64,000 bases of DNA from Rhodocollybia butyracea (lineage: Eukaryota > Basidiomycota > Agaricomycetes > Agaricales > Omphalotaceae). Every line of letters starts with the position of its first letter. Position 1 is the stretch's first letter. The notes under the pieces are model-generated. The model made no database searches and had not been told where the DNA came from. It worked only from the letters and a program-made list of their open reading frames with translations. Below, piece after piece: positions 1-53,968 of this stretch. The stretch lies in the NCBI GenBank assembly GCA_015501585.1, contig JADNRY010000219.1, positions 1 through 64,000 of the forward strand, in the 5' to 3' direction. Position numbers and translations under genes: made by a program.

Positions 1-2657
1 TTGCTGTGAGCCGAGTGGCGCAAGCACAGCTGCTGAGCCCGCACACAGGTACGGCAAACGCGTTCATACTTGTGAGTTTCAAGCTCATCTTGGGCGAGAT
101 ATTACAACAGCCGCTTCAGTAGCATTATTTAAATACCCCCAGTACCTGTTGTGGAGATTATGATAATAAACCCAGTAAGCTACTGTACAGTAAGAGTGTA
201 GGGCATTTTTAATCCCTCTGTGTTCGCATTTGATGAGGTCATGTGACTTGTTCGTTGCAGCTTTTGGTGGCTGGATGAAAATAGGTTATTTTACGGCCTA
301 TTTAGGCAATTTCTGGGATGGATAGCTAGCCCAAAAAAGACTATATATAATGTATTAATATTTGAGCACTACTCCGATGTTAGGCACCATAAGGGGATGG
401 ATTGCATCGAAAAATCTAGATGACGTTCGGTCAAAGCTGGCCGAGCATTACCCAATTGGGTAATGCCATCAAAACAGTAAAAGCGGCCTAAAAAGCCTGC
501 TTCTACATGGATATTCCACCCTATAAGAGTGTAGATAGTATCTTTACATATATAATAGGTCCCTGAAGCGAGATTACAGCGATAGCTGCGGTCAAAGCTG
601 TTTTATTACCATATTTAGAATGCCAGCAAAGCAGCCTAAAAGCTTGTTTATGCATGGTTATTCTACCCAATAGATGTACAGTAGGCACCTAAAGCAAAAT
701 TAAAGCAGGTATATGGTGTAATAGTAGCACTGCTTCGATGTTTGGGTCTGTGGCTGTGTTGTGAAAAATCGAAATAAAAGTAGGGTTCTTTAATATACTA
801 GGAGTACAGGCATGGTCTCTGCATAATATATATATGCCTGAAGCAAAATAAGAGCATTCTATGAAGAGAATAGGCTGTAATTGCCCGCTCTAGGCCGGAG
901 GAGGTCAAAGCTGTATGACCAAATAGGGAAATATGTGATTACATACAGGTGGTGTTGAGTCAAAGTTGGGCTCAGTAATGGCATGGCCTCTCAAGGTCTG
1001 AGGTCTGGAATACATATCTGAGTACTGTAGTATGCTAGCTACGCCCTCCAGGTGTTATATTTGGCAATATTGGGCAGGAATATGTACATGGAGTGATCAA
1101 TGGTGAGTAACCATCAAAATTCGCCTTTTTGAGGAATTAAATACTAATAATGAGTGTCTAAGCGCAGGTAGGACCTCAAAGCTTGGTAGGTGTACTGTAC
1201 TACATAGTATACACTCGATCCGTGTCCAAGAACTATTAATCTGCGACCAGATGCGATGGTATACACTGATTTTTATTGATTTTCCCTCAAAACTCGATTT
1301 TTTGAGGAATTATCATGAAATATTGGGGCCTTAAGAGTAGCCAGGGGGCTAAGACGTCGTATATAGACTGTAGTATATGGTATTGGCCTTTGCCATATGC
1401 AAGAACGATTTATGCAGCACCTGAAGCGATGGTATTCCCTGATCTGTATGGATTCTGCCAAAAAATGCGATTTTCAGGAAATAAAACAGGCATAGAGTGT
1501 GCTACAAGTCTCAGATCATACTAAAAACTTGGGAAACATGTCTTCGAATTGAATTTAATGACACACAGGTGTTATATCCACATCTGGGTACCTCCATGGA
1601 ACGACACTGTTGTAAGTGCACACTAGGATATCTCTACTTGGCTCAAAGTTCAGATTGTGACATTGAGATGTACATACTCAAACCTTTTGGTCTAGAGGGC
1701 CTCTATATGATTCGAATACATGATTACCCAAGTTTGAGCATAGTCTGAGGTGTATAGCACGCTCTATGCCTGTTTTATTTCCTGAAAATCGCATTTTTTG
1801 GCAGAATCCATACAGATCAGGGAATACCATCGCTTCAGGTGCTGCATAAATTGTTCTTGCATATGGCAAAGACCAATACCATATACTACAGTCTATATAC
1901 GACGTCTTAGCCCCCTGGCTACTCTTAAGGCCCCAATATTTCATGATAATTCCGCAAAAAATAGAGTTTTGAGGGAAAATCAATAAAAATCAGTGTATAC
2001 CATCGCATCTGGTCGCAGATTAATAGTTCTTCGACACGGATCGAGTGTATACCATGTAGTACAGTACACCTACCAAGCTTTGAGGTCCTACCTGCGCTTA
2101 GACACTCATTATTAGTATTTAATTCCTCAAAAAGGCGAATTTTGATGGTTACTCACCATTGATCACTCCATGTACATATTCCTGCCCACATATTGCCAAA
2201 TATAACACCTGGAGGGCGTAGCTAGCATACTACAGTACTCAGATATGTATTCCAGACCTCAGACCTTGAGAGCCATGCCATTACTGAGCCCAACTTTGAC
2301 TCAACACCACCTGTATGTAATCATATATTTCCCTATTTGGTCATACAGCTTTGACCTCCTCCGGCCTATAGCGGGCAATTACAGCCTATTCTCTTCATAG
2401 AATGCTCTTATTTTGCTTCAGGCATATATATATTATGCAGAGACCATGCCTGTACTCCTAGTATATTAAAGAACCCTACTTTTATTTCGATTTTTCACAA
2501 CACAGCCACAGACCCAAACATCGAAGCAGTGCTACTATTCCACCATATACCTGCTTTAATTTTGCTTTAGGTGCCTACTGTACATCTATAAATACTGTAT
2601 AGACTGCTATTGGGTAGAATAACCATGCATAAACAAGCTTTTAGGCCGCTTTGCTGG

Positions 2658-2910
2658 TGTCACGCCTCCGCCTCTCCATAATCACCACTGACCGTATCCG
2701 GCGATACGGTCATCCTAGACGCCGCCGATAGACCAAACGGTCTATCTTATCATTCTATTTATTATTAATTATATAATAAATCCGTTACTATAAGTATCGT
2801 ACGATTACTTAAGAGTCTAGTTAGTCTTTTACACCGTCGTACACACAATAGTATCCTATTTGTCGTGTTCACCGGTGTTCTTAAGGACTTTGCCCATAGG
2901 GCGCGTTATA
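2658..2910 (+). repeat. 5' LTR, family 1 copy 1
   Basis: 253 bp, nearly identical to 5740-5992 and to the LTRs of the minus-strand copy. It contains two strong hairpins: stem GACCGTATC at 2690-2711 (loop 4) and stem GATAGACC with GGTCTATC just downstream. The target duplication GCTGG is at 2653-2657. Confidence 0.92.
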
Positions 2911-3078
2911 CTTTTTTGAACATCAAAAAATTACTATTGTGTGAATAACACAAAGCTATTAGTTAAAACAAGCTAAAAACAGTTATACTACCAAGTATAA
3001 CAATCATTATTCCAACTCGCTTCACAAGCTATACAAACCCGCTCCATTTTTCCTTCTCGCTATATCATTTGCTGTCCC

Positions 3079-5399
3079 ATGACCTCTCGAAATCAATCAG
3101 AGAAGTCACATCAGAGTGTGCGCGATGGCGCACCTTCCAGTCGTGGTGACGTGTCACCACACTCAATCTATTCAGTCGCATCAGCGACTCATTCTGTACA
3201 TGCGTCTGAAAGACAGCACTACAGGCAGGACAAGAGTCCACCTAATGAACAGTCTATGACTATTCATAAGAAACGGCCAACCCGAGAGGGTTTAAGTGAG
3301 ATTTCTTCTGCGCTACAAGATGTAGCGGCATCACTCGACAAGAGTACGCAAGTACTCAATCGTATTCTCAATATAACTGAGAAATGGGATGCATCTAGCA
3401 TCCGATCTAATGAAGAAAGATCTTCTTCATCGAGAAACAGCAATAGAATCACTATTGCTGCACCCACACCGAGACGGACTGCCGTCACACCACCGGTATT
3501 GCACAACGCAACACCATATATTCATACCGAGACAAACAACTCGGTACGCCAATGGCGTGAGACTGTGCCCAAGGCACCGTCAGTCCAACAATCACTGTTG
3601 GACGAACAGTATTCACAAGGGATGACCAAGTCACCCCGTCATGTTCCTGTATTCCGACAGGAATACGCACCAGTGTCAGTAACTATACCGACACCCATCT
3701 ACACATCCCGCATGAGACAGAGTCCCAATGCGGAGGCAGCGTCTCTGACACTGCGAGGTCCCAGGCCATTACTGGTGACCAAATCTTGCTCACCACAAAG
3801 CGCGGTGAACATTAAAAGTGAACCGAAGTTACCTCGTAACTTTGTTCAGGTAGTAGCGATACCACCACAGGAAAGTACAATGTACTTCCCTACTGCAAGG
3901 GCGCCAATGGTACCCAATATTATTACACCTCCAGTAGTTGTACCAAACACTACTGGAAATCATTCCAGTATGGACCGCAACACGGTATCCTTCCGGTAGT
4001 TCCTACTACCATATCCATCGCCCCGGTGACACAAAGTGTTGCCCCTCCGGTAGTACACACTACCGTAAGACTGCCCAAATTGCCGCCCAGCAATGCGCCA
4101 GAGCCAAGTTCAATGCCAGTACCAACGGTATTGGCTGAGTTGCAACCACAGCCGCTTCCATTGGGAGTAGCTAAAGATTGGATGAGTCGCATAGCGATTC
4201 AACGCCAACATAACACCAGTCTCCGAGATTTCGGATACGCGCCATCTGGGCTTCCCGACCAAATGGTGGGATATAATGTCGACGGAATACCCGTTGATAA
4301 ATTGACTACTCCCAGAGAAATCTGGGATCGATTTTACATTCCACCCGCTGAGTCCTTTCCAGGACCAAGCAATAATGCCGGAGTGAAAGCGCCTAGCAAA
4401 AAAATCCCGTGAAGGGGGGAGGAAGCACAAGAGTGCTAAATCCAAAGGCCGCAAACGCAGGCCATGGTCGGATGAATCATCTGACTCTAGTGATACCGAG
4501 TCAAATACTGACTCTTCGTCTGATGCCTCTTGGCTAGACAAATTTGCTACCCGTAAGGGTAAAATTACTCCTAATGAGCGCCGTAAAATACTGCGTTCAC
4601 TTGCATCTAAGATGCGAGAAACAACAGGTGACGACGAACCCCGATGGAAACACAAGGTACACAAAGTGTACCGTAAACAAATTTGAGATAAGGTAGGGAA
4701 TCCTATCCCTCCCATTGAGAGCCGTAAAGCTCTTAAAGTTCCATCTCCGGAGGTCTATGACGGATCTCCGGATGTCGATGTCTTCGAGCGGTGGCTAATG
4801 TCACTTCTCCAATGGATGGTAGTCAACCGCATGTGCAGTGACGATTACGATGCTACACGGACTGCCGTGCTTGGCATGTTTCTAAAGGGCAAAGCCCTTG
4901 ACTGGTATAACGACGAAGTCGCTGGTATACACCGCACTGTCCTTAAGTGGACATTTGAAGGCACCATCATTGGTGTCTTTGATCGTTGCATCCAAGCAAC
5001 GACCATTCATCAAGCTGCACGGCAGTTTGACCTTATTGAGTATTCACCCGATATGGGTGTGAGGGATTATTATTCCTCACTTACACGATGGGCATCACGG
5101 ATGATGCAACAATGCGGAAACGGTTCATTGAGGGATTACCCTTCAATATTATCAGGCAACTCACGAACGAGGGGATCGTTCCGGAGTATGCCAAATTAGA
5201 AGTGATGGTCAGAGCCGTCACACGCATTGAGGACCACATGGCCCTCACTAAATATTATGTCTCTTCTAGGAATAGAGACAATGAACTTGAATCATCAGAA
5301 CACCCCGATGAGTTGGACACCGAGAACATTAAAAATGTTCTTGAGCCAATCGAGGAGGACACCTCCTTAAGTATCGGAAAGGATAAACCTTCCGAATGA
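3079..5399 (+). pseudogene. Gag-like gene, family 1 copy 1 (frameshifted)
   Basis: Structural protein gene of the retroelement. The N-terminal half is low in complexity (Ser, Thr, Pro rich). The C-terminal half carries the retrotransposon gag core with the motif GKALDWYNDEV near 4890-4920 and a following GLPFNIIRQL block. Comparison with copy 2 shows the lesions: one base lost near 3975, one A gained in an A-run near 4400, CGA changed to TGA at 4684-4686, and 16 bases lost near 5105. Start ATG 3079 is used because the homologous gene in copy 2 begins there. There is no zinc knuckle and no downstream pol. Open reading resumes after each lesion, so the damage is recent. Confidence 0.85.
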
Positions 5400-5739
5400 T
5401 TTATTGGTTTATTCCAACGCCCAGGTAATATGCCTTACCTGGGCATCACTACTTATCCTCAGCCCGGATTCTCACTGAGAATCCTCATTAAGCAATACTC
5501 GGAAACTTCCGAGTCTGCGCGTTGAACATTCGGACATTTCCGAATCAAATCATGCTCTAGTGGTACGCCCCACTATGGTTTGATTCGGACAAGTCCGAAA
5601 ATCTGATGCGCCGCATCAATTAATCGCGTACTTGATACGAGATCATTCTATGTTAAACCAAATTAAAAATGGTTTGGATGGTGATGATGTCATTACCATT
5701 TTTGATTCACATCCCTGATGTTAATCTGGTGGGGGAGGG
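5400..5739 (+). other. 3' noncoding part of family 1 element: consecutive hairpins and polypurine tract
   Basis: No gene. At least six perfect hairpins follow one another: 5419-5444 (10 bp stem), 5466-5484 (9 bp), 5498-5513 (7 bp), 5528-5545 (7 bp), 5584-5599 (7 bp) and 5604-5618 (7 bp). The GGTGGGGGAGGG tract at 5728-5739 is the presumed plus-strand primer. Copy 2 preserves the same series. Confidence 0.85.
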
Positions 5740-5992
5740 TGTAACGCCTCCGCCTCTCCATAATCACCACTGACCGTATCCGGCGATACGGTCATCCTAG
5801 ACGCCGCCGATAGACCAAACGGTCTATCTTATCATTCTATTTATTATTAATTATATAATAAATCCGTTACTATAAGTATCGTACGATTACTTAAGAGTCT
5901 AGTTAGTCTTTTACACCGTCGTACACACAATAGTATCCTATTTGTCGTGTTCACCGGTGTTCTTAAGGACTTTGCCCATAGGGCGCGTTATA
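5740..5992 (+). repeat. 3' LTR, family 1 copy 1
   Basis: 253 bp, matches the 5' LTR apart from single differences such as TGTAAC in place of TGTCAC at the start. It is followed by the second GCTGG (5993-5997), after which the interrupted foldback arm resumes. Confidence 0.92.
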
Positions 5993-6508
5993 GCTGGCAT
6001 TCTAAATATGGTAATAAAACAGCTTTGACCGCAGCTATCGCTGTAATCTCGCTTCAGGGACCTATTATATATGTAAAGATACTATCTACACTCTTATAGG
6101 GTGGAATATCCATGTAGAAGCAGGCTTTTTAGGCCGCTTTTACTGTTTTGATGGCATTACCCAATTGGGTAATGCTCAGCCAGCTTTGACCGAACGTCAT
6201 CTAGATTTTTCGATGCAATCCATCCCCTTATGGTGCCTAATCCACCTCGGAGTAGTGCTCAAATATTAATACATTATATATAGTCTTTTTTGGGCTAGCT
6301 ATCATCCCAGAAATTGCCTAAATAGGCCCGTAAATAACCTATTTTCATCCAGCCACCCAAAAGCTGCAACGAACAAGTCACATGACCTCATCAAATGCGA
6401 ACACAGAGGGATTAAAATGCCCCTACACTCTTACTGTACAGTAGCTTACTGGGTTTATTATCATAATCTCCACAACAGATACTGGGGGTATTTAAAATAA
6501 TGCTACTG

Positions 6509-16285: not shown

Positions 16286-16849
16286 CAATGTATAACGCGC
16301 CCTATGGGCAAAGTCCTTAAGAACACCGGTGAACATGACAAATAGGATACTATTGTGTGTACGACAGTGTAAAAGACTCACTAGACTCTTAAGTAATCAT
16401 ACGATACTTATAGTAACGGATTTATTATATAATTAATAATAAATAGAATGATAAGATAGACCGTTTGGTCTATCGGCGGCGTCTAGGATGACCGTATGGC
16501 TGGATACGGTCAGTGGTGATTATGGAGAGGCGGAGGCGTTACACCCTCTCCCACCAGATTAACATCAGGGAGGTGAATCGAAAATGGTAATGACATAGAA
16601 TGATGATCCCGTATCAAGTACGGGATTAATTGATGCGGCGCATCAGATTTTCGGACTTGTCCGAATCAAACCATAGTGGGGCGTACCACTAGAGCATGAT
16701 TTGATTCGGAAATGTCCGAATGTTCAATGCACAGACTCGGAAGTTTCCGAGTATTGCTTAATGAGGATTCTCAGTGAGAATCCGGGCTGAGGATAAGTAG
16801 TGATGCCCAGGTAAGGCATATTACCTGGGCGTCGGAATAAACCAATAAA

Positions 16850-19255
16850 TCATTCGGAAGGTTTATCCTTTCCGATACTTAAGGAGGTGTCCTCCTCGAT
16901 TGGCTCAAGAACATTTTTAATGTTCTTGGTGTCCGACTCATCGGGGTGTTCTGATGATTCAAGTTCATCGTCTCTATTCCTAGAAGAGACATAATATTTA
17001 GTGAGGGCCATGTGGTCCTCAATGCGTGTGACGGCTCTGACCATCACTTCTAATTTGGCATACTCCGGAACGATCCCCTCGTTCGTGAGTTGCCTGATAA
17101 TATTGAAGGGTAATCCCTCAATGAACCGTTTCCGCATTGTTGCATCATCCGGTGTTTGGAGCATCCGTGATGCCCATCGTGTAAGTGAGGAATAATAATC
17201 CCTCACACCCATATTGGGTGAATACTCAATAAGGTCAAACTGCCGTGCAGCTTGATGAATGGTCGTTGCTTGGATGCAACGATCAAAGACACCAATGATG
17301 GTGCCTTCAAATGTCCACTTAAGGACAGTGTGGTGTATACCAGCGACCTCGTCATTATACAAGTCAAGGGCTTTGCCCTTTAGAAACATGCCAAGCACGG
17401 CAGTCCGTGTAGCATCATAATCGTCACTGCACATGCGGTTGACTACCATCCATTGGAGAAGTGACATTAGCCACCGCTCGAAGACATCGACATCCGGAGA
17501 TCCATCATAGACCTCCGGATATGGAACTTTAAGAGCTTTACGGCTCTCAATGGGAGGGATAGGATTCTCTACCTTATCTCGAATTTGTTTACGGTACACT
17601 TTGTGTACCTTGTGTTTCCATCGGGGTTCGTCGTCACCTGTTGTTTCTCGCATCTTAGATGCAAGTGAACGCAGTATTTTTACGGCGCTCATTAGGAGTA
17701 ATTTTACCCTTACGGGTAGCAAATTTGTCTAGCCAAGAGGCATCAGACAAAGAGTCAGTATTTGACTCAGTATCACTAGAGTCAGATGATTCATCCGACC
17801 ATGGCCTGCGTTTGCGGCCTTTGGATTTAGCACTCTTGTGCTTCCTCCCCCCTTCACGGGATTTTTTGCTAGGCGCTTTCGCTCCGGCATTATTGCTGGG
17901 TCCTGGAAAGGACTCAGCGGGTGGAATGTAAAATCGATCCCAGATTTCTCTGGGAGTAGTCAATTTATCATTCCGTCGACATTATATCCCACCATTTGGT
18001 CGGGAAGCCCAGATGGCGCGAATCCGAAATCTTGGAGACTGGTGTTATGTTGGCGTTGAATCGCTATGCGACTCATCCAATCTTTAGCTACTCCCAACCG
18101 AAGCGGCTGTGGTTGCAACTCGGCCAATACCGTTGGTACTGGCATTGAACTTGGCTCTGGCGCATTGCTGGGCGGCAATTTGGGCATTCTTACGGTAGTG
18201 TGTACTACCGGAGGGGCAACACTTTGTGTCGCCGGGGCGATGGATATGGTAGTAGGAACTACCGGGAGGATACCGTGTTGCGGTCCCATACTGGAATGAT
18301 TTCCAGTAGTGTTTGGTACAACTACTGGAGGTGTAATAATATTGGGTACCATTGGCGCCCTTGCAGTAGGGAAGTACATTGTACTTTCCTGTGGTGGTAT
18401 CGCTACTACCTGATTGAAGTTACGAGGTAACTTTGGTTCACTTTTAATGTTCACCGCACTTTGTGGTGAGCAAGATTTGGTCACCGGTAATGGCCTGGGA
18501 CCTCGCAGTGTCAGAGACGCTGCCTCTGCATTGGGACTCTGTCTCATGCGGGATGTGTAGATGGGTGTCGGTATAGTTACTGACACTGGTGCGTATTCCT
18601 GTCGGAATACAGGAACATGACGGGGTGACTTGGTCATCCCTTGTGAATACTGACGGTGCCTTGGGCACAGTCTCACGCCATTGGCGTACCAAGTTGTTTG
18701 CCTGACACTGGTGCGTATTCCTGTCGGAATACAGGAACATGACGGGGTGACTTGGTCATCCCTTGTGAATACTGACGGTGCCTTGGGCACAGTCTCACGC
18801 CATTGGCGTACCAAGTTGTTTGCCTCGGTAGGAACAGATGGTGCTGCATTATGCAATACCGGCGGTGTGGGTGCAGCAATAGTGATTCTATTGCTGTTTC
18901 TCGATGAAGAAGATCTTTCTTCATTAGATCGGATGCTAGATGCATCCCATTTCTCAGTTATATTGAGAATACGATTGAGTACTTGCATACTCTTGTCGAG
19001 TGATGCCGCTACATCTCGTAGCGCAGAAGAAATCTCACTTAAACCCTCTCGGGTTGGCCATTTCTTACGAATAGTCATATACTGTTCATTAGGTGGACTT
19101 TTGTCCTGCCTGTAGTGCCATCCTTCAGACGCACGCACGGAATGAGTTGCTGAAGCGACTGAATAGATTGATTGTGGTGACACGTCACCACGAATGGAAG
19201 GTGCGCGATCGTGCACGCTCCGATATGACTTCTCTGATTGATTTCGAGAGGTCAT
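16850..19255 (-). pseudogene. Gag-like gene, family 1 copy 2 (frameshifted)
   Basis: Same gene as in copy 1, starting at ATG 19255. The long first frame (to 17960) is kept open only because a 122 bp tandem duplication (18581-18824) and a 26-base deletion in each unit combine in length, so part is translated in a shifted frame. A further frame change near 17960 and one extra A near 17690 break the middle. The core frame (16850-17722) reads through the gag motif (WYNDEV-like block, here GKALDLYNDEV) to the normal C-terminus, which is intact where copy 1 lost 16 bases. The Trp-to-Leu change in that motif is also a sign of decay. Confidence 0.85.
18581..18824 (-). repeat. 122 bp tandem duplication inside gag
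   Basis: Two adjacent, essentially identical units (18581-18702 and 18703-18824). Copy 1 has a single unit, so the duplication arose in this copy. As 122 is not a multiple of three, it shifts the reading frame. Confidence 0.9.
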
Positions 19256-19681
19256 TGAGACAGCAAATGATATAGCGGGATGGAAAATGGAGCGGGTTTT
19301 GTATAGCTTGTGATGTGAGTTGGAATAGTGGTTGTTATACTTGGTAGTATAACTGTTTTTAGCTTGTTAAACTAATAACTTTGTGTTATTCACACAATAG
19401 TAATTTTTTGATGTTCAAAAAAGTATAACGCGCCCTATGGGCAAAGTCCTTAAGAACACCGGTGAACACGACAAATAGGATACTATTGTGTGTACGACGG
19501 TGTAAAAGACTCACTAGACTCTTAAGTAATCGTACAATACTTATACTAACGGATTTATTATATAATTAATAATAAATAGAATGATAAGATAGACCGTTTG
19601 GTCTATCGGCGGCGTCTAGGATGACCGTATCGCCGGATACGGTCAGTGGTGATTATGGAGATGCGGAGGCGTTACACAATG

Positions 19682-21821: not shown

Positions 21822-23034
21822 TGTTATGACTCGATCAATAGTCTCGTCCAAACCTTCACAGTACGTAACTTGGCAGTAAAAATGATAAGAGAAATTAATG
21901 AGATTATAGAGCAAGCCTTTCCGTTCGTTGAAACCGCTAGGCAAAAAATATATACTCAAACAACTAGGCTCAAGTAAAGTTAGTAACTAGTTTGTAATAC
22001 GAAACTCACAGAAGTTATTATTTGGAGATAGCTCGACAAATAATAATAAGATTACCCTCGGAGATGGCTCGACAAGCAGTAATATGAATCAGAACTAATA
22101 CTCGGAGATGGCTCAACAAGTAGTAGTGAGTATGGTGTCTAATACTCGGAGATAGCTCAACAAGTAATAGTGAGTATGGTGTCTAATACTCGGAGATAGC
22201 TCAACAAGTAATAGTGAGTGTGATGTCTAATACTCGGAGATAGCTCAACAAGTAATAGGAAGTTGCAACTCGGAGATAGCTCAACAAGTGGCAATTAAAG
22301 AAGTATTCACTAGGAGATAGCTCAACAGGTGAATATTAGTGGATACAACTTGGAGTTAGCTCAACAAGATGTATAAATGTGTATTGTAGCTTGGAGATAG
22401 CTCAACAAGATACAATGAGTTGGTCTGGTGATTCACACAAGTGATAACAGCAAACAAGTGGGGGTTTGGATTTAAGAAAAATAATACGTCTAACGTACAT
22501 TGGTAAATCTAGACTACTTATATACTGTGCAATGTGTACTAGTTAGGAAATGCTGCGGAATGACTAGATTTGAGTCATAACTGCGGAAATACTGCGAATG
22601 AGTCAGTCTGACTATGTAATGCTGTGCAATGACTAATATTGAGTCATGTATGCGGAACCGTAGTTGACTCAGATATCTGGCTGTGCAATGACTGATATTG
22701 AGTCATTGATGTAAAGAGGCTATGCAATGATGTCATAGCTGTGGAGCAGTGATGTGATATCATAACTGCGGAGCAATGGAATGACATCATGATTGTGGAG
22801 TAGCAAGATGACATCATGGTTGTGGAGCTAGAATGATGTCATGACTGTGCAGACTGTGCAGTGACTGTTAAAGATCATTCTGGTGTTCTGGAAGAATGTG
22901 TGCAGCATTAACCCAAATGGTGTTGAATAACTAATGAATGTAAAATGTTAAGTAGAAGTATTAATGATAGTGTTCATAGTTGGTTACAGAAGAAAAAAGA
23001 TTGGGTGTATAGGATTTAGATCCGGGTCATAACA
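21822..23034 (-). repeat. Solo LTR, family 2, inside the transposase gene
   Basis: Starts TGTTATGAC and ends GTCATAACA (perfect terminal complement), flanked by AAATC on both sides (21817-21821, 23035-23039). Orientation is set by the family 2 element at 46-51 kb. It contains the constant-loop hairpin array (22015-22418) and a second array of ATGACT/AGTCAT hairpins (about 22560-22860). Confidence 0.93.
22015..22418 (-). repeat. Array of ten hairpins with constant loop and variable stems
   Basis: Ten units each carry the core GGAGATAGCTCAACA or a one-base variant. The flanks differ from unit to unit, yet the left flank is the reverse complement of the right flank of the same unit. Examples are TTATTATTTG with CAAATAATAA, GTATTCAC with GTGAATA, ATACA with TGTAT, and ATTGTA with TACAAT. 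The core itself can close a GAG/CTC pair. The array is present in all four copies of this LTR in the window. Confidence 0.9.
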
Positions 23035-26000
23035 AAATCACAGTAGGAGTCTTCTTGAAGTCACGATCAGGTGAAGTCCAAGCCGATAAATCTGTTCCCG
23101 AAAACATCCCTCTATGATCTTCCAGCTCCATGGCTTGCAAAGCGTCTATGGCTTCACCAAAGTCTTCCAGAAGGACCGGGTCTGTAATATTGTCCAATAC
23201 CAGCTTAAGGTTGCCTTGTCGGCAATAAGTTTTCATTCTAGTCACCTCAAGTTCTCCTACAACCGTATATTTAGTAACACTGTGGAAGTTACTTATCAAC
23301 TTCGTACCTCGACGTCTATTGGAATTCATTTCTTGTAAATCGCCATTATCGCGCTCCCAAACGGGAGTACTTCTAGCATGCCCCGGTCCCAAATTTTCTA
23401 GATCTTCGACCGCGTGAACTGAATAGTGCTGATTTGGTTTGATTGAAAAATCTGGAAAGAGCTTCCTCAGAGAGTGCAGATAGTCAAGAATTCGGGTTCG
23501 GTATTCAACCCTCAAAGGTGCTGACGTTTCACGAAGGAAGAGGATGCAAAGTGCATGAACCATGTGCAGATAGTTCAGTAAAATCTGGAAAAACTGGGAT
23601 TGGGGCTCTTTTTCGTAATGGTATCCCCATATGCTGATCAAGGTGATTGGTACGTGGATTGTACCAGCAACTTTCCATTCTTCGGCGCTGAGCTTTTCTC
23701 CTCCTTGCCTCGCCCAAAGTGAGGGGTGTGGGGCGGGGCTCATCCAACTAGGGAGAATTGTTTGTTTCATATCTTTGGCGATCTCTTTTAAAACATCCTT
23801 TCCCAAAATTTTTTGAGGAGTTTTCATCCACGGGGCCGTTAGCGGGGACGGGTGGTGCTCTCGATGCTGTACAGAAGCCTTAGTTCATCTATGGAGTAGA
23901 TTCGCGTCCAGGCTCACCCAAAGGATCAAACACTTAGCCATTTCCTTTTTCGAGGGAGTGAGCGGATCGGCAACGTCATGAGTGAATGGCGGAATTTTCA
24001 TATCAATACACATTCGCTTCAGATAATCCTCTCGCTTTCCTGCAAGTGAGAACCATGAAGGCTCTGTGGTTTCGAAGCTATTTTTGATTTTTGCATAATC
24101 GGCCGGGACAAAGGGTCGCCTAAGCTCTGCTTGCTGCGTACTAGTATCAGTTACTGCAATTGACTGAAAAAAGGACACAAACGTAGGCGTTTAGACATTT
24201 GACGAGATCCTTCTTCGATTCAGTCGCCCTGTAAAGAATATCCAGATTTTTGCATAACCCTTGTAAGATGGATATATTCAGGTCACCGAATCGCGGCCCC
24301 TCCTTTGCCTGCATTTGTTCTGTTAATTTTGCCAAATGTGCATCATCAATGCTAGAGGCGATTGGAGGCTAACCGCAGATTAGCATACAACAAACTTACT
24401 TGGAACAAACTTACCATATCAGAGACAAGATGAGATAATTCGCTTTCAAGACCGTCCTGGATATTGACTGAGTAGGAGAGGGCTGGGATGGTGGGTACGT
24501 CCTCAGCTTTGGACTTTTTGCGCTACATGACATCATGATCAGCAATTATCTATACATATTTATAAGAGACGACTCACCCATTCCAAAATATCTGCTATAA
24601 GTACGTTTTTTTATACCAGCGGTGGGGAGCTCTAGTTCAACGCAAATGTATAAGAGAGTGTCCTTCAAATGTTTCTTCAAGTTCGTAGTTAGGTCAGGCT
24701 TGTTCTGCCGAATCTCTTCCCATAGAAGACACGCAACCAAGTTCGAGGGACGTTTCCCGGAGATCACAGGTTGACCCTCTCCACCGTTGTTACTGTGGTC
24801 CACTTGCATCACATCCGATATGTGGGTATCGATAAGGCCAAGTAGCCCCATGTGCATGTCGTCAAACGTGGTCATAGTAATGGGGTTGAAATAGGGAAGC
24901 CTCAGCAGCTCAGTATATCTAATGGAACTGGTTTCAAAGAAACTTTGGTGTTCTGCCTCTGAGGAAGCGTTCAACCACCGCAGAGCCTGTGCTCTGTGCT
25001 CCTCTAGGTCTCGTCTGGGCCATGCCTCGGGATCAAAGTTTTGACCAATCTGGCTCTTCATTAGCTTACAGCGTCGACAGAAGTATGTGGCAGAATGAGA
25101 ACCGAAGCCTGAGACTTGATGTGCTGCCTCCGTGTCGCAGACAACAAGGATCAAGGCCAGAAGTACGTTTCGGCCCAGAGGGTGGTCCGCAGTACAAGTA
25201 TAAAAAACACCTTCCCAAAAATCAAGAAGTTGGTCAACCAGAATTTTTAACGGATGGTTTATCTCGTGAGTATGTGGATTTCCAGACATCAAGGTGACCA
25301 TGAACATATATTCTCGCCGGTATCGCAGGTGTTCAGGAAGAACCAGTAGAACCATGTACATTGCTGTGGAGGGAGAATGATTGTGCCCTACCATCATGTG
25401 AAATGGGCTGAAGGAATCAACCCCGAGACTCATCAGAAGACGCAAGTCGGGTGTCCCAGAAGGCCCAGGCTGTTCCTTCATAAAAGGATTTCCATCCCGG
25501 CCCTGAAAATCACGAAACATTGGTGAATCCCAGAAGTCGCTTTCTCTGTCGCTGGGAGCAGCACGACGTTGATGTTCAGTAAGCAAGTGCTCTATACCCG
25601 GGATAGCTAAGATTCTTCCCAGCCACTCCTTTAGATCTTGAAATATCTGCTTTCTAACAGGGATAACATATGTACGATCCCCAATTCGGCGCGTTGTCCA
25701 CAGAGGAGTACCACACTTAGCAGAATCGGGATGTGATTTGGCAGTGCAAGATGAAAATGGAGTTTCGGCTTTATACGCCTCTTCATTGCGACTAAGTGTG
25801 TCATCCGTGAAGGGGTATAATGCGAAACATGTGGGGCAGGATATGAAGGTGCGAGAACTTGGTTCAAGATCGTACCGAGAAAGGATGGTATGGATGTCTT
25901 TTGGTATTCTGGACGAGACATCTGACCCAATAACCATGCGAATTCTTTGCCTTTGTTCCAGAGCGCATGCTATTCCGCGCTGCCAGGCGAGTATAAATCT

Positions 26001-27336
26001 CATTCTTCGAACAGGAACCTGGAATTTAATATAGCAAATGAGAGCTCCTAGCAAAGCTGACGCGAGAATAGGATCTTGATGAATCCAAGTCCTGAAGAAT
26101 CGTGCTACGTGTTGTCAGTCAGGCCCAAGCATCGACAGAATACGAATCGTCTTACTGTTGTCAATGATGTAACGGGATACCTCTCCTGGAGATGATTGTA
26201 ACGGCCATTCCCTTTGTTTCAAAAGATGCAGTCTCTCTAACCCAGCGTACAAAGCATCTTCCATCAATCTCCGAGTTTTGGGATTCTTATCAGGGGACGC
26301 CATCTGAGCTTGCCTCAAAAGGTAGCACAGTCGCCCTTTGGTTTCGATGAATCGACGGTTGCGGGGATTTGGTGTTTTTAGAGAAAACTGGCCCGAGTTC
26401 GCATGGAGCAGGGCTTCCGGATCTGGAAACACAAAGGAAATACTTTTGGAAGGGCGAAGTATGAACTCTAATTGAGTTCGGGACTCATAAAGGGCTGCTA
26501 TACGTGCATTTATTTCCGACTCTATGTCCTCTAGTTGAGCTTCTTCCAAAGCTACGGCAACAGGAGCAAGAGCAGGAGGAGCGGCGGTACTGCTTGGAAT
26601 TTGCAATGTATCGGGTTGCAGCTGTGAAAAACTTGGACTTTGAAATTGATCGCGAAGGCGCTGAGCTTTGGCGTGGATAGCGAATATAGCCGACGTGACA
26701 TTGACTCCGGATGAGCATTGAGCGACACATTGGTCACATTGACAGGTCTTATCTTTGGGAGACACTCAACGGCCCATTTACTGGAGAGACAGTATTGCGT
26801 CAGGGGACTTGGGAAGAATCGAGACTGGATGTGCTGCTATATATATGCCGATCGCATTGATATTGTCACTACAAAAATCCTGTTTCTATTAGTGATTCCC
26901 AGCTAACAGTACCCTTCCATGTGCTCAGCTGGACTAGTACTTTTAAGTATAGGTTAGTGGAAGGTCCCAATTTTCAATTGGGTGACCACCACGTGGGACT
27001 TTCTTAAAGTTGGGCGAAGAAAATATGGCTCAATGTTCGGTGAACTATTTATACTTTACACGCAACTAGGTAAGTATACTTAGAAGGAAAGAAAGACGGG
27101 GTTGCAGGGATCTATCTAGCCTTGAGCTTGAGTATCGGATCTGCACGAGACAGCGTCGCAAATCAGCTTGGCATATGCAATCTATTTGTACATGAATTAC
27201 GAATGTGCTCAAGCAGCGTCAGCTACAGAAAATGCTTACCTTGTGGAACAGGAGTTTCAGAGAATTTTCAGTATCTGATAGTTGAACCAGTACATTATAG
27301 AACACTTTCGAAAAATGCTCAACCTAGGAGATGAGT

Positions 27337-30020: not shown

Positions 30021-31223
30021 TGTTATGACCCGGATCTAAATCCTATACACCCAATCTTTTTTCTTCTGTAACCAACTATGAACACTATCATTAATACTTC
30101 TACTTAACATTTTACATTCATTAGTTATTCAACACCATTTGGGTTAATGCTGCACACATTCTTCCAGAACACCATTAACAGTCACTGCACAGTCTGCACA
30201 GTCATGACATCGTTCTAGCTCCACAACTATGATGTCATCTTGCTACTCCACAATCATGATGTCATTCCATTGCTCCGCAGTTATGATATCACATCACTGC
30301 TCCACAGCTATGACATCACTGCTCCACAGCTATGACATCACTGCTCCACAGCTATGACATCATTGCATAGCCTCTTTACATCAATGACTCAATATCAGTC
30401 ATTGCACAGCCAGATATCTGAGTCAACTACGGTTCCGCATACATGACTCAATATTAGTCATTGCACAGCATTACATAGTCAGACTGACTCATCCGCAGTA
30501 TTTCCGCAGTTATGACTCAAATCTAGTCATTCCGCAGCATTTCCTAACTAGTACACATTGCACAGTATATAAGTAGTCTAGATTTACCAATGTACGTTAG
30601 ACGTATTATTTTTCTTAAATCCAAACCCCCACTTGTTTGCTGTTATCACTTGTGTGAATCACCAGACCAACTCATTGTATATTGTTGAGCTATCTCCAAG
30701 TTACAATACACATTTATACATCTTGTTGAGCTAACTCCAAGTTGTATCCACTAACATTCACCTGTTGAGCTATCTCCTAGTGAATACTTCTTTAATTGCC
30801 ACTTGTTGAGCTATCTCCGAGTTGCAACTTCCTATTACTTGTTGAGCTATCTCCGAGTATTAGACATCACACTCACTATTACTTGTTGAGCTATCTCCGA
30901 GTATTAGACACCATACTCACTACTACTTGTCGAGCCATCTCCGAGTATTAGTTCTGATTCATATTACTGCTTGTCGAGCCATCTCCGAGGGTAATCTTAT
31001 TATTATTTGTCGAGCTATCTCCAAATAATAACTTCTGTGAGTTTTGTATTACAAACTAGTTACTAACTTTACTTGAGCCTAGTTGTTTGAGTATATATTT
31101 TTGCCTAGCGGTTTCAACGAATGGAAAGGCTTGCTCTATAATCTCATTAATTTCTCTTATCATTTTTACTGCTGAGTTACGTACTGTGAAGGTTTGGACG
31201 AGACTATTGATCGAGTCATAACA
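30021..31223 (+). repeat. Solo LTR, family 2, in the 5' part of copy A
   Basis: Begins TGTTATGACCC, ends GTCATAACA, flanked by GGCTG (30016-30020 and 31224-31228). Copy B shows the empty site as a single GGCTG in continuous sequence near 59036-59046, so the insertion is younger than the duplication. The hairpin array lies at about 30671-31032. Confidence 0.93.
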
Positions 31224-46238: not shown

Positions 46239-47479
46239 TGTTATGACTCGATCAATAGTCTCGTCCAAACCTTCACAGTACGTAACTCGGCAGTAAAAAT
46301 GATAAGAGAAATTAATGAGATTATAGAGCAAGCCTTTCTGTTCGTTGAAACCGCTAGGCAAAAAATATAGACTCAAACAACTAGGCTCAAGTACAGTTAG
46401 TAACTAGTTTGTAATAAAAAACTCACAGAAGTTATTATTTGGAGATAGCTCGACAAATAATAATAAGATTACCCTCGGAGATGGCTCGACAAGCAGTAAT
46501 ATGAATCAGAACTAGTACTCGGAGATGGCTCAACAAGTAGTAGTGAGTGTGGTGTCTAATACTCGGAGATAGCTGAACAAGTAATAGTGAGTGCGATGTC
46601 TAATACTTGGAGATAGCTCAACAAGTAAGAGGAAGTTGCAACTCGGAGATAGCTCAACAAGTAAGAGGAAGTTGCAACTCGGAGATAGCTCAACAAGTAA
46701 GAGGAAGTTGCAACTCGGAGATAGCTCAACAAGTGGCAATTAAAGAAGTATTCACTAGGAGATAGCTCAACAGGTGAATGTTAGTGGATACAACTTGGAG
46801 TTAGCTCAACAAGATGTATAAATGTGTATTGTAGCTTGGAGATAGCTCAACAAGATACAATGAGTTGGTCTGGTGATTCACACAAGTGATAACAGCAAAC
46901 AAGTGGGGGTTTGGATTTAAGAAAAATAATACGTCTAACGTACATTGGTAAATCTAGACTACTTATATACTGTGCAATGTGTACTAGTTAGGAAATGCTG
47001 CGGAATGACTAGATTTGAGTCATAACTGCGGAAATACTGCGGATGAGTCAGTCTGACTATGTAATGCTGTGCAATGACTAATATTGAGTCATGTATGTGG
47101 AACCGTAGTTGACTCAGATATCTGGCGGTGCAATGACTGATATTGAGTCATTGATGTAAAGAGGCTATGCAATGATGTCATAGCTGTGGAGCAGTGATGT
47201 GATATCATAACTGCGGAGCAATGGAATGACATCATGATTGTGGAGTAGCAAGATGACATCATAGTTGTGGAGCTAGAATGATGTCATGACTGTGCAGACT
47301 GTGCAGTGACTGTTAAAGATCATTCTGGTGTTCTGGAAGAATGTGTGCAGCATTAACCCAAATGGTGTTGAATAACTAATGAATGTAAAATGTTAAGTAG
47401 AAGTATTAATGATAGTGTTCATAGTTGGTTACAGAAGAAAAAAGATTGGGTGTATAGGATTTAGATCCGGGTCATAACA
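46239..47479 (-). repeat. 3' LTR, family 2
   Basis: 1241 bp, TGTTATGAC to GTCATAACA, same sequence as the two solo LTRs. Its hairpin array (46434-46862) shows three tandem copies of a 38 bp unit in which the stems no longer match, which explains most of the length difference from the solo copies. Confidence 0.92.
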
Positions 47480-48705: not shown

Positions 48706-50953
48706 TTATCCATCCCCTTTTGCATTCCTTCCCAAGAGTGTGCCATCAATATCCCAAATTTCATCTTTAACTTCAATTATAATGTTGTCGGGTATTTTTC
48801 TGGAAGTTTCAATAAATGCAGCTTGACCTGACACATGTTCATGCTGTTGTGGGCAGTGTTGGGCAAAGTGGCCTATCTTTTCACAGTAAGTACAAGCCCC
48901 TTTTCCTTGCCTTTGGTCATACTCCTCTGGAGTGACCCAAGTGGTTGGTACTACTGACATCTTATTAACATTATCATTTCTAGAATTGCCTTGATTCATT
49001 CTAGAAGCTCTTGGAGTCAGCGTGGTGGCCCTCTGTTGTTGAGCTTGTGATGTATGATTGTTTGGTGGGCTATCCTGATCCAAAACCGTATTTTGAGCAG
49101 TATGACAGTCATTTTGTACAAAGTTATCGATTTCTGGACCATATGCTAGTGGGAACAATGGTGAGGCTCCTTTTGAGACTTTTTGTGTCCTGCCTTTGTG
49201 TGAGACAAAAGAATAATCATTATTGCTTTGCAAAAAATCATGTGCTTGCTCAGCCCAGTCCAAACCTAAAGGCTCATGAATGAGAGTCTGTGGAACATGA
49301 TTATTTTCTGCAGGTAGTGGTGTTGGATCTATTGGTTGGGTTTCAAGAAATAAACATTGACTTGTAGCTTGAGCTTGTTCAGATTTTGTAGACATTACAA
49401 AATTTTGTTTTCTGCTCATAAGGCTGGCATTTCTTTGCCCTCGATCAAGTAGCGCCTGACTACTACCAGTATGTGCTAATTCATCATGTTGAGGTAGAGT
49501 TGCAGAGGGGATAACTTGGTTGTCATTCCTTGTTCCTTGCTCCACTTTTTCAACAGGATCTGGTGCTGATGACATGTGCATCACAGGTTGTAACATAGAT
49601 AGCCTGTTGACAATCTGAGGGCTTGGTGAGTGAGCCCTAGATTCCTCTACACTGTGTTGAGGATGAGTTTCTACCACATTTCCTGTGTTTTGTACAGGTG
49701 TGTGAGCACTTTGTGCATTTTCTTGTGCATTTTCCTGTCCTTTGGCTCGTTGGCTTGTATGAAGAGAAGGTGCTAATTCAACACTCATATTACTCCTTGC
49801 CCTCAGTAGAGCTTGAACCTCATCCCTTTGTATCTCAGTGTATAGGTGTGTTAGAATTTGAGTATTTCTTTCTTCTGACATCCTTTGATACAGGTTTGGG
49901 CTTAATGATGCAAGTTCTCTCTGACCTAGTCTTGTCAACTGTTGGATCCATTGCCATGGCTGAGCATTACTGCTTCTATAGCCTAATGACTCCAAAAATA
50001 TTTGGCATTGCTGGCTGAGTCTGTCAAATTGTATTTGTTCATTTTGAAACTGGTTCAGAACTGGTACAGTATTGTTTGACTTGTATGAGCCTTGTTTTAC
50101 TGAACTTTGGAAAGATCCACTTGGTGATGGATGATTCTGAGCAGATATAGTTGGCTGTAAACCTTGCAATTGAACAGGTGCTTGTTCATGCCCTTGTGAG
50201 TGATTTAAACTCCTAACAACACTTCCAGCATTGTGATCTGACTGAGAATGGTGAGAGAGAGATTTATGATGTGGATTACTATGAGTCATGGAATGCTCTT
50301 GCCCTTCCTCAGGACTAAATACAATGGAGATCTTCTAATAGGTTCAATTTGTCTTTGAATTGATAGTACAGAAGACATTTGGCCATTAGTTGTTGTACTC
50401 CCAGTTGCCTGTTTGGCTCTAGTAATTGCTGGTGCAGATGATGAGTGGTAGGTAAGTGAAGGACTTTGTTCTGGTTCTGAGAACTGAACAATGTTCCTGC
50501 TTTGCCGTGTAGATTCTCCACTTTGAGATTTGTGTGTATCAAATTGTGCAGAATGGCTATGATGTAAAAAAGGTAGAGGTGCACTTGCTACAAAATTAGG
50601 CATTTGCTGCTGTTGTCCTCGCGAACCATTATCAACTAAATGACTGGTGGAACGGTCATCATGACAAGCAAATATCTGTGCAATTTGTGCAGTAGGTGGC
50701 ATTCAAACTTCTTGAACCACAGTTTCCGTTAAATTTGAACCCTTTAATCCAATGTGAATTCTCTGCATTACTACAAATTCACCATTTGAAATAGTAGTGG
50801 GTGACCCCCGGTTTGTATTTCCAACATTAGTATTGTGTTGTCCCAGTGTATATCCTGGAGCATTAAAACCAATTGGAAAGGTGGGATATTAGATCCTTGA
50901 ACAAATTGGTGAGACCCAATCTGGGTGTATGATCTAGTTGTTTGTGTAGACAT
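48706..50953 (-). pseudogene. Gag-like gene with CCHC zinc knuckle, family 2
   Basis: ATG 50953 (MSTQTTRSYTQIG). One frame is interrupted by a small frameshift near 50885, a TGA at about 50703-50705 and another frame change near 50289, after which 527 codons are open to 48706. The long middle is Gln/Asn/Ser-rich with polar repeats (prion-like composition). Near the C-terminus CTYCEKIGHFAQHC is a perfect C-X2-C-X4-H-X4-C knuckle, the RNA-binding hallmark of Gag. About 45 residues follow it (FIETSRKIPDN; EVKDEIWDIDGTLLGRN), and then a stop. No capsid motif was recognised, which is usual for divergent Gag. Confidence 0.85.
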
Positions 50954-50982: not shown

Positions 50983-51794
50983 TGTTATGACTCGATCAAT
51001 AGTCTCGTCCAAACCTTCACAGTACGTAACTTGGCAGTAAAAATGATAAGAGAAATTAATGAGATTATAGAGCAAGCCTTTGCGTTTGTTGAAACCGCTA
51101 GGCAAAAAAATATATACTCAAACAACTAGGCTCAAGTAAAGTTAGTAACTAGTTTGTAATACAAAACTCACAGAACTTATTATTTGGAGATAGCTCGACA
51201 AATAATAATATGATTACCCTCGGAGATAGCTCAACAAGCAGTAATATGAATCAGAACTAGTACTCGGAGATGGCTCAACAAGTAGTAGTGAGTGTGGTGT
51301 CTAGTACTCGGAGATAGCTCAACAAGTAATAGTGAGTGTGGTGTCTAGTACTCGGAGATAGCTCAACAAGTAATAGAAAGTTGCAACTCGGAGATAGCTC
51401 AACAAGTGGCAATTAAAGAAGTATTCACTAGGAGATAGCTCAACAGGTGAATGTTAGTGGATACAACTTGGAGTTAGCTCAACAAGATGTATAAATGTGT
51501 ATTGTAACTTGGAGATAGCTCAACAATATACAATGAGTTGGTCTGGTGATTCACACAAGTGATAACAGCAAACAAGTGGGGTTTGGATTTAAGAAAAATA
51601 ATACGTCTAACGTACATTGGTAAATCTAGACTACTTATATACTGTGCAATGTGTACTAGTTAGGAAATGGTGCGGAATGACTAGATTTGAGTCATAACTG
51701 CGGAAATACTGCGGATGAGTCAGTCTGACTATGTAATGCTGTGCAATGACTAATATTGAGTCATGTATGCGGAACCGTAGTTGACTCAGATATC
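50983..51794 (-). repeat. 5' LTR, family 2, truncated
   Basis: Matches the other family 2 LTRs from TGTTATGAC at 50983 to the CAGATATC at about 51794, where it stops abruptly. The hairpin array spans 51178-51538. Confidence 0.9.
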
Positions 51795-52288
51795 ATTACA
51801 TACAGGTGGTGTTGAGTCGAAGTTGGGCTCAGTAATGGCATGGCCTCTCAAGGTCTGAGGTCAGGAATACATATCTGAATGCTGTAGTATACTAGCTACG
51901 CCCTCCAGGTGTTATATTTGACAATATGTGGGCAGGCATATGTACATGGAGTGATCAATGGTGAGTAACCATCAAAATTCGCATTTTTGACAAATTAAAT
52001 ACTAATAATGAGTGTCTAAGCGCAGGTAGGACCTCAAACCTTGGTAAGTATACTCTCCAACATAGTATACACTCGATCCGTGTCCAAGAACCATTTATAT
52101 GGCACCAGATGCGATGGTATACACTGATCTTTATTGATTTTCCCTCAAAACTCGATTTTTTAAGGAATTATCATGGAATATTGGGGCCTTGAGAGTAGCC
52201 AGGGGGCTAAGACGTTGTATATAGACTGTACTATATAGTACTAAGCTTTGCCATATGCAAGAACGATTTATGCAGCACCTGAAGCGAT
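51795..52288 (+). repeat. Fragment of the foldback element arm
   Basis: Corresponds to 935-1430 of the left arm at 117-1550, with scattered substitutions. It starts exactly where the family 2 LTR ends and stops at AAGCGATG, after which the sequence is unrelated. This is the only other trace of that element in the window. Confidence 0.88.
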
Positions 52289-53968
52289 GTCAGTCTACCT
52301 TGGCTGGCGGGTTTACTAAAGACGGATATATTGCTCCCCAGGCAAACCTTTGTATTCGATATCGCCGGAACAGGTCAGAGTACACGATCACCAGCATTTA
52401 CGGAGATGATATTTGTGGCATTAGTGGTGGTTCGTCGACGCACGGAGGAAAGTTCAAAGCGGCTGCAAATCTGGGAAGCAGGTGAGGTTAAATCCAATGT
52501 ACATACTTCTTGGTTTGACTGTCCAACAACACCTGGTCCCAGGACAATTAGCATCTCACATCGAGCGGATCAAGTACTACTATTCCGTATTCAGTATCTT
52601 AGACAAAGGCAAACGCCTCTTCCACCAGGCTTAAAGGTCTGGGCTGCACCGGATCCTTTACTTATCGAAGACCGCATCTATATGGCTAACAAACTGTAAC
52701 GCCCAGTAGTTGGTTCTCTTCATAGGGTTCCAGGTGTACTAGGCCATTGCGCCAAAGCTCTTATCCCGTTATCAACTGAACCCCTGTCGCTTCCACTGGG
52801 AGCCAGTTAAGTGGTTAGTGGGCTACATCGTTTTCATCATCATCGACTACAACATTATCTACGAAAACCTCATGGTAGTAGCAAACTCCAGGTAGTGGTA
52901 TGAAGCCTGTAGGGAATATAGATGCGGACTATGCGCAGCGGGGTCTACAACTGGTTAAGGCCGAGTATGTTTCATTAGCATGGGATTTACTCGCTATTAG
53001 TATAATCAATTTTCAAATACTTAGCATCCATCCTGAAGTACTACGAGTTGTCATAGGAAAGCAGACGAAGAGGCAACCGGGCTTTCCAGTAGAAAGGCAT
53101 TGCTCCCAATTCAACTACAGAAGCCTCTACAAAAAAGTCGTACATCTATTGTGCGGATATTCCGAAAGCCGTTAGAAATGAAATATAATCGCATCCGGAC
53201 AAAGTTACCCTATTATGCAAAATTTAAGTTCATGGACGCCACTACCGCTAGCAAGAGCCTACTGGAAACTCTCTTGAGAGTTACCGCGAAAGTTGCCCAG
53301 CATCTGGACACAATTGCGCACAGGCTAAAGCCATTAGGTTGACTCAAGAGTCATGTGCTGTGACTTCTCGCGATCTGCTATCAGCGTGGCATCACGCGAT
53401 GTGGCGCAATTGGGAGATGTTGCTGATATTGACTGGAAGATTTCTGAAAACTTTTCTGAAAAACAATTTGTGCAATCAAAGTATATATGGACATTTGGCT
53501 GCGGTAGGCCAGCATCCGAAGCAGACGCCGACTTCAACCAAGATCGTGACGATATAGCAGCTTACCTCATTACTACCTCACTCGGGACCACCGCATCGCA
53601 TGACCTGCGCAGTGAATTCAACAGGCACTTACAATGTCTTGGAAACCATTCAGACCATTGCGCCTTCCGTGAGCCATTCCGAAAGGCAAGCGCCTTGGCG
53701 CTGAGGTTCTAGTTCCACAGGCACCAGTGTCAGGTCTGGGAGTGATGGTATACTGGATGATGAGGGGAACTCAAAGCTGCTGCAACGTCAATGTAATTAC
53801 TAGCGGAGAGTCACGATTATAATCGGCAAACCAATCGATTGTATGTTAAAACCGTCTCATCCCAGTGTTACTTATGAAAGGTACGAACGTATGCCATACA
53901 ACGCGCACGTTACAAACATCAACTTTCAACTACCAATGAAGTAATTATAGTGACTTCGCTCGCTCTTG
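52289..53968 (+). other. Decayed coding-like region, identity unknown
   Basis: Two open frames of 122 and 119 codons (52331-52699 and 53353-53712) have protein-like composition (FVFDIAGTGQSTRSPAFTE; YIWTFGCGRPASEADADF) but are separated by about 650 bases with many stops. They may be remnants of one gene. No domain recognised. Confidence 0.35.

Follow-up and report, generated by a model that had tools for sequence, protein, structure and literature searches.

In this study, we analysed a window of 64,000 nt of DNA from the basidiomycete Rhodocollybia butyracea (GenBank assembly GCA_015501585.1, contig JADNRY010000219.1, here C516, positions 1 to 64,000; the genome comprises 95.6 Mb in 1381 contigs). 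A gag-only long terminal repeat (LTR) retrotransposon at 2658–5992 of the window, designated E, is filled along its length with short perfect hairpins, and this hairpin density belongs to one branch of Ty3-type elements among the reverse transcriptase (RT) loci sampled in the genome. We propose, with a probability of roughly 0.55, that in this branch, which includes an autonomous form and gag-only companions, the hairpins are maintained because synonymous sites are under selection for an RNA, mainly the sense one, that is folded.

RESULTS

Hairpin density in E and in its coding region

Unless another threshold is named, a hairpin was counted where a perfect stem of at least 6 bp closed a loop of 1–10 nt. 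The controls were dinucleotide shuffles (60 for E) and synonymous shuffles (60 per frame), the latter preserving both protein and codon usage. By this count E holds 49 hairpins, compared with 6.8 ± 2.5 (maximum 13) in its dinucleotide shuffles; the figures are 30 versus 1.55 for stems of at least 7 bp and 17 versus 0.33 for stems of at least 8 bp. The original prediction, made from the letters of the window, had put the chance expectation at one hairpin per 400 bases, close to the one per 493 found in the shuffles, and the observed density is indeed far above it. All 15 hairpins that it had listed are present, 14 of them at identical positions or extended by one base on each side and one (3644–3663) as an overlapping alternative to 3649–3666. 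In 1-kb bins of the window, density peaks only at E and at a second copy of its family (Table 1), the rest of the window having 2.34 hairpins per kb and a single shuffle of that rest 2.12. Stems of at least 5 bp with loops of 3–10 nt cover 38% of E and 36% of a related element, L069 (contig C605), versus 10% and 9% of the respective shuffles.

The hairpins run through codons, as had been proposed, and the codon-shuffle comparison suggested at that time gave a density well above that of the controls. The E fragment 3079–3999 holds 15 hairpins compared with 2.8 ± 1.6 (maximum 7) in synonymous shuffles, and two frames of the second copy hold 10 and 15 compared with 1.5 and 3.1. The same was found for the gag-protease (gag-PR) frame of L069 (41 versus 7.2, maximum 13), its RT frame (18 versus 3.1, maximum 7), its RNaseH-integrase (RNaseH-IN) frame (27 versus 6.0, maximum 9) and the gag frame of another relative, L070 (contig C883; 28 versus 5.3, maximum 11). 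Coding parts carry about five times the hairpins of their codon-shuffled versions.

Identity of E and its relatives

The limits of E are exact, being set by its LTRs and by the GCTGG duplication on both sides (Table 1). Its frame at 3079–3999 encodes 306 aa, and 30 of its 49 hairpins fall within the gag-like region; in another copy (C528:315755) the gag-like frame is open for 820 aa. We name this region gag on the basis of gene order and homology to the frame that precedes RT in L069, the Pfam gag-type matches of the second copy being not significant (E 0.05–0.1). No RT-like frame was found in the 3.3 kb of E, and C516 is absent from the RVT_1 matches listed (best 150 of 513 candidates). The 5′ LTR is followed by 16 bases, CTTTTTTGAACATCAA, which L070 shares without a difference and which do not start with TGG; tRNA primer sites usually begin with TGG. 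Junctions between this LTR and the putative primer-binding site (PBS) number 245 genome-wide with at most one mismatch, whereas the reversed control gave none. A 12-base perfect complement exists between the LTR (2842–2853) and the leader (2932–2943) of E, a length reached by none of 300 LTR shuffles, and resembles self-priming elements; in the same test the LTR and leader of L070 showed no complement of 8 or more. No Rfam family was matched at the gathering threshold in 2500–6200.

Table 1 Features of E and of the second copy of its family
Feature	Position	Strand	Remarks
Left target site duplication, GCTGG, 5 bp	2653–2657	+	from sequence
5′ LTR, 253 bp	2658–2910	+	4 hairpins
Primer-binding-site-like stretch	2911–2926	+	adjoins LTR; putative primer role, from position
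Leader hairpin	2912–2930	+	8-bp stem, loop of 3
Leader hairpin	2982–3001	+	8-bp stem, loop of 4
Gag-like coding region	3079–5399	+	split into several open frames in E
Hairpin-rich gag stretch	3118–3603	+	11 perfect hairpins, starting at 3118, 3143, 3174, 3311, 3342, 3365, 3387, 3410, 3438, 3525, 3583
3′ non-coding stretch	5419–5675	+	8 hairpins, starting at 5419, 5466, 5497, 5528, 5558, 5584, 5604, 5655
Polypurine-like tract GGTGGGGGAGGG, ahead of 3′ LTR	5728–5739	+	from sequence; nearly the same in L070
3′ LTR	5740–5992	+	differs from 5′ LTR at 1 of 253 positions
Right target site duplication, GCTGG	5993–5997	+	
Second copy of the E family, hairpin-dense	16291–19676	-	96.9% identity over longest aligned stretch
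Target site duplication of second copy, CAATG	16286–16290 and 19677–19681		

Dispersed copies of E are 96–100% identical over about 940–1100 bases in 40 of 41 rows (best 40 of 639 candidates). The second copy within the window holds a perfect 124-bp tandem duplication at 18580–18825. A 290-aa gag query taken from this copy matches a Rhodocollybia butyracea protein with 90% identity over 49% of the query, and a gag search of the genome gave at least 136 matches (best 135 of 433 candidates scored). Three of those listed, at 58–60% identity, lie on C605 (L069), C883 (L070) and C661 (L071). L069 has frames of 1233 aa (gag-PR), 398 aa (RT) and 714 aa (RNaseH-IN) and is hairpin-dense throughout gag, RT, RNase H and integrase. 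Its gag frame ends in what by eye was judged to be a protease, with no Pfam match there, and its pol matches RVT_1, RT_RNaseH, RT_RNaseH_2, Integrase_H2C2 and rve above the Pfam cut-off and SH3_Tf2-1 below it. L069 is an autonomous Ty3-type relative of E. L070 is another LTR element, with 266-bp repeats and a single long gag-like frame, and shares 98% identity with L071. E, L070 and an RT element at C334 have in common the end of the LTR and the bases directly after it. Since the LTR/PBS junction at C334 lies 4.5 kb upstream of the RT and on the same strand, the C334 element is the probable autonomous partner of E; the same junction is found 4.2 kb upstream of RT at C611 and C507. Compared by eye, none of the E-type gag matches listed has one of the listed RTs of the branch within 5 kb downstream on its own strand.

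Restriction of the hairpins to one branch

Copies of the E family with their flanks (L001–L038, of which L001 and L009 are the window itself) were compared with 30 other RT loci of similar length sampled in the same genome (L039–L068). Stems of at least 7 bp number 16–29 per locus in the former and 0–6 in the latter, and the other RT loci, with 3.14 hairpins per kb, are near background; a density equal to that of ordinary retroelements, which would have refuted the original prediction, was thus not seen in the RT loci sampled in this genome. Relatives whose RT is 88%, 80% and 72% identical to that of L069 contain 53, 38 and 28 hairpins in stretches of 3.5, 3.5 and 2.3 kb, compared with 6.4, 8.6 and 4.7 in shuffles. 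At 43%, 41% and 34% identity the counts are 15, 16 and 8, compared with 6.3, 6.5 and 7.3. The sister RT group of L074 and L075 (41–43%) shows a mild excess, 15 and 16 hairpins versus about 6.4, which looks as if the trait were graded.

Chance, or an origin of the hairpins in the composition of the DNA, its codon usage or the encoded protein alone, is refuted by the dinucleotide and synonymous shuffles and by the comparison of RT loci. Dinucleotide shuffles contain about one-seventh of the E count, synonymous shuffles about one-fifth in the frames tested, and RT loci at 34–43% identity have 8–16 hairpins per 3.5 kb versus 53 in the branch locus L072. The slight excess in the other RT loci sampled (3.14 versus 2.34 per kb in the rest of the window) is in favour of such an origin, which we nevertheless regard as extremely improbable.

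Outside this genome, no relative was confirmed in IMG/VR, and plasmid records gave only weak matches. Protein relatives at 50–56% identity were found in Armillaria, Phanerochaete and Peniophora. Three contigs from bacterial bins (L082–L084) contain distant Ty3-type pol relatives (32–34% identity) with 1.3–2.2 times the hairpins of their own shuffles; these are probably stray eukaryote contigs.

Geometry of the hairpins

Looking inward, the rate of Watson–Crick (WC) pairing at the inner pair was 0.54 versus 0.30 in shuffles where a loop of 5 would become one of 3, 0.20 versus 0.27 from 4 to 2, 0.29 versus 0.29 from 3 to 1, and 0.34 versus 0.25 from 2 to 0 (n = 50 for the last). Inward complementarity is enriched only while the loop retains at least 3 bases. 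Looking outward, the rate at which the next pair was WC fell from 0.57 after 5 pairs and 0.53 after both 6 and 7 to 0.41 after 8 and 0.24 after 9. This amounts to 461 of 841 cases after 5–7 pairs versus 10 of 39 after 9 or more (p = 0.0004, an approximate value because stems are entered at several lengths and the five sequences share some homologous stems). Stem growth stops near 8–9 bp. Selection for stable tetraloops was considered and set aside, as 7 GNRA and no UNCG loops among 57 tetraloops are only a hint.

Evolution of the stems

In the RT region, 5 of 19 stems of L069 are still perfect in L072 and 11 of 20 in L077; the set of hairpins changes from family to family while the density as a whole persists. 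The original prediction had suggested comparing copies for compensatory changes. Between families, with 5 of the 10 pairings pooled and no column pair counted more than once, stem pairs changed at both bases were again WC in 23 of 36 cases; among isolated control pairs the figure was 266 of 896 (p = 5.5e-5). Over all ten pairings, in which sequences are reused, the counts are 52 of 77 and 620 of 1976. Third codon positions change less in stems than elsewhere. Between L069 and L072 they differ at 42 of 135 positions in stems (31%), 32 of 51 in loops (63%) and 216 of 467 outside (46%; stems versus rest, p = 0.0005), and between L069 and L073 at 28%, 66% and 45% (p = 0.001). Within the E family, whose alignment has 36 rows representing 35 copies, stem variants are nearly all point changes. 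A second WC type was found in 4 of 323 stem pairs, and variants present in at least 3 rows occur at 0.027 per site in stems versus 0.045.

The original prediction had also considered that small hairpin-type mobile sequences might have been inserted repeatedly into the element. The hairpins near 3989 and 4043, which are 80% alike over 25 bases, would fit such an origin; however, this pair is the sole direct repeat of 20 or more bases found besides the LTRs. In addition, only 3 of 2773 columns are gaps in the well-aligned parts of the L069/L072 alignment, where stems differ base by base. Near-gapless alignment between families thus leaves insertion unsupported, and its probability appears negligible. 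The same repeat search rules out one motif copied many times, bearing out the earlier statement that the hairpins are not copies of one motif.

Folding energy and codon positions

The folding energy difference (MFED), calculated with ViennaRNA on 300-base fragments (step 150 bases, 20 dinucleotide shuffles), was 43.0% for E, 40.2% for the second copy, 42.4% for L069, 40.7% for L072 and 35.9% for L070; the lowest single fragment among these five reached 18.9%. Five other RT loci gave 1.6–10.0% and window DNA −0.6%. Against 12 synonymous shuffles, the excess of sense folding energy in the gag-PR, RT and RNaseH-IN frames of L069 was 45%, 57% and 47%, and that of antisense folding energy 35%, 39% and 45%. 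Stem pairs in which a third codon position was matched with a first or with a second one numbered 142 and 139, compared with 14.9 and 18.1 in synonymous shuffles. In the L069 frames, pairs of the types 1:3, 2:3, 2:2 and 1:1 were enriched 7 to 10 times over shuffles and those of the types 3:3 and 1:2 4 to 5 times; in the 3:3/1:2 register just one pair in three is freely tunable. This pattern is as predicted by tuning through synonymous choice.

Strand-specific signals were also found. The sense strand of E folds with a z of −3.49 compared with −2.35 for the antisense strand (p = 0.0005), and that of L069 with −3.57 compared with −3.20 (p = 0.02). At third positions in loops, G has a frequency of 0.066 versus 0.200 outside and C of 0.148 versus 0.210 (G:C contrast, p = 0.011); this depletion of G is specific to the sense strand.

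Other features of the window

Other dispersed or tandem repeats in the window lie at 22057–23034, 46239–47479, 50983–52289 and 30679–30989, and none matches E. A frame at 24546–26054 (minus strand) has a Transposase_21 match just below the cut-off (E 3.5e-06). A 527-aa frame at 48706–50289 (minus strand) contains by eye a zinc-knuckle-like motif, CTYCEKIGHFAQHC, with no Pfam match, and may be another gag.

DISCUSSION

Of the three explanations that the original prediction had left open, selection for a folded RNA is the best supported, insertion is not supported, and palindrome-generating copying errors are disfavoured. Synonymous constraint in stems, compensatory changes, a minimum loop of 3 bases, a ceiling on stem length and G-poor sense loops all argue for the first. 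Selection for folding is the part of our explanation that we hold most firmly, somewhat more so than the whole. Since the property outlasts the single hairpins, which change from family to family, selection would act on folding itself and not on particular structures.

Several results weigh against this explanation. First, the slower change of stems is not seen everywhere: between L069 and L077 third positions differ at 4% (6 of 144) in stems, 12% in loops and 8% outside, a deficit that is not significant (p = 0.11), and within the E family the contrast between shared and private variants in stems is a trend (p = 0.20). Second, the two strands of L072 and of L070 show no significant folding difference, the minus-strand folds being strong too, and the excess of A over T in loops, present in E and L069, is barely visible in L070. 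Third, G-U pairs ought to be tolerated in a sense RNA whose fold is selected, and the missing preference for them counts against this explanation. Interior single mismatches in seven sequences, some of them homologous, comprise 25 G-U and 40 A-C (2.9 and 3.5 in shuffles). Single stem changes between families gave 40 G-U and 55 A-C (control 1881 versus 1940, p = 0.18), and those among E-family rows 82 and 75. Moreover, A-C mismatches within reach of a single synonymous repair (14 of 24, background 0.54) have not been purged. This symmetry of A-C and G-U is the chief point against a purely sense-RNA reading; it would be expected if the fold had to form in both strands or in DNA, or if palindromes were corrected during copying.

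One alternative is that selection acts on a fold of the DNA or of both strands. Hairpins would then be favoured in the minus-strand cDNA, or in the sense and the antisense RNA together, where they might, for example, stop the strands from pairing. WC pairs alone keep their stability whichever strand folds, in agreement with the similar counts of A-C and G-U, the folding energy of the minus strand is also far below that of shuffles, and the lack of a significant strand difference in L072 and L070 is in keeping with it. Nevertheless, the sense excess is above the antisense excess in all three L069 frames (45/35, 57/39 and 47/45%), the strands of E differ clearly in z, and the loop depletion of G is strand-specific. 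We consider this alternative quite unlikely.

The strongest rival is palindrome correction, in which the RT of the element would turn back at a short, imperfect inverted repeat and use one arm as the template for its partner; hairpins would then be created and repaired by mutation and not by selection. In its favour, stems decay to A-C and G-U alike, the trait is shared by elements probably copied by the same enzyme, gag-only ones included, and such templating could produce the appearance of compensatory change as well as that of slowly changing stems. Differences between families (left/right arm: 26/40, 22/22 and 22/32) are on both arms, which speaks against it, although in two of the three comparisons the right arms differ more (40 versus 26 and 32 versus 22). 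Stem growth halts at 8–9 bp, just where correction should work best, and G depletion in sense loops at third positions is not expected from it. As to regional density, the constrained RT core has 15.9 hairpins per kb, equal to the LTR (15.9) and above gag (12.9 in E, 11.1 in L069); yet the leader (17.9) and the 3′ non-coding part (23.6, 5400–5738) are denser still. By eye, only one of seven clusters of rare changes in the 36 E-family rows resembles a newly made palindrome. It is found in L028 (1 of 36 rows), where at the site matching 3387–3403 a hairpin has been replaced by a shorter sequence that forms a new palindrome, a candidate template-switch event. Taken together, these data leave palindrome correction improbable, though less so than a fold in both strands.

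Under selection for a folded RNA, synonymous codon choice would keep the RNA of the element tightly folded along its length, and the transcript would presumably fold in this way in the cell. With a string of 6–9 bp stems, sites would be out of reach of small-RNA silencing complexes and of antisense pairing, while each stem would stay too short to count as double-stranded RNA; dsRNA-binding domains and Dicer need helices longer than 8–9 bp. Concealment as the role of the fold is a tentative proposal, and packaging into particles is another possible use of the same fold. If concealment applied, the element would carry two codes at once, its proteins and a genome-long string of 6–9 bp hairpins, adjusted by synonymous codon choice, that leaves the RNA nearly closed to silencing RNAs and antisense, a picture that we put forward with corresponding caution.

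Plants contain TR-GAG elements, which are non-autonomous, LTR-flanked and carry gag without pol. E is likewise LTR-flanked with gag and no pol, and its mobility probably depends on an autonomous relative that has LTR ends and putative primer site in common with it, but it has a fungal host and hairpins throughout. L069 pol shares RVT_1, RT_RNaseH and rve with Ty3/gypsy elements that have a Tf2-like integrase SH3, whereas the other RT loci sampled in this genome lack the hairpin density. No hairpin-filled LTR retrotransposon was described in the titles and abstract openings listed by searches of an open-licence collection, which mostly excludes subscription papers. The RNA of the yeast LTR retrotransposon Ty1 has a mapped fold, and the opening of the abstract that reports it names no end-to-end hairpin array (PMC9503155).

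Among the closest parallels is the genome-scale ordered RNA structure (GORS) of some RNA viruses, recognized by an MFED above 3% across the genome; the branch lies at 35.9–43.0%. In both cases, folding energy exceeds that of order-randomized controls over coding RNA. In the table of 18 virus transcripts in PMC3950689, MFED ranges from −3.6% to 16.0% (UNAFold, 50 shuffles), compared with the 36–43% of the branch (ViennaRNA, 20 shuffles), and effects on recognition by host defences were tested for GORS viruses in that work (PMC3950689). GORS viruses are positive-strand RNA viruses, while the branch consists of LTR retrotransposons with short, local, perfect hairpins. We therefore describe the branch, whose fold is predicted, as working like GORS without being a member.

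The folding-energy excess of the branch is greater by a wide margin than any value in the published table of virus transcripts (PMC3950689). If the hairpins do serve as camouflage, it would surpass by far the RNA structure of the viruses listed there and would be common to gag-only companions. Because RT loci without the trait are present in the same genome, the cause, be it escape from silencing, packaging or a palindrome-writing RT, is directly testable. If our reading is true, this branch would be a large natural case of selection on RNA structure through synonymous codons in a mobile element.

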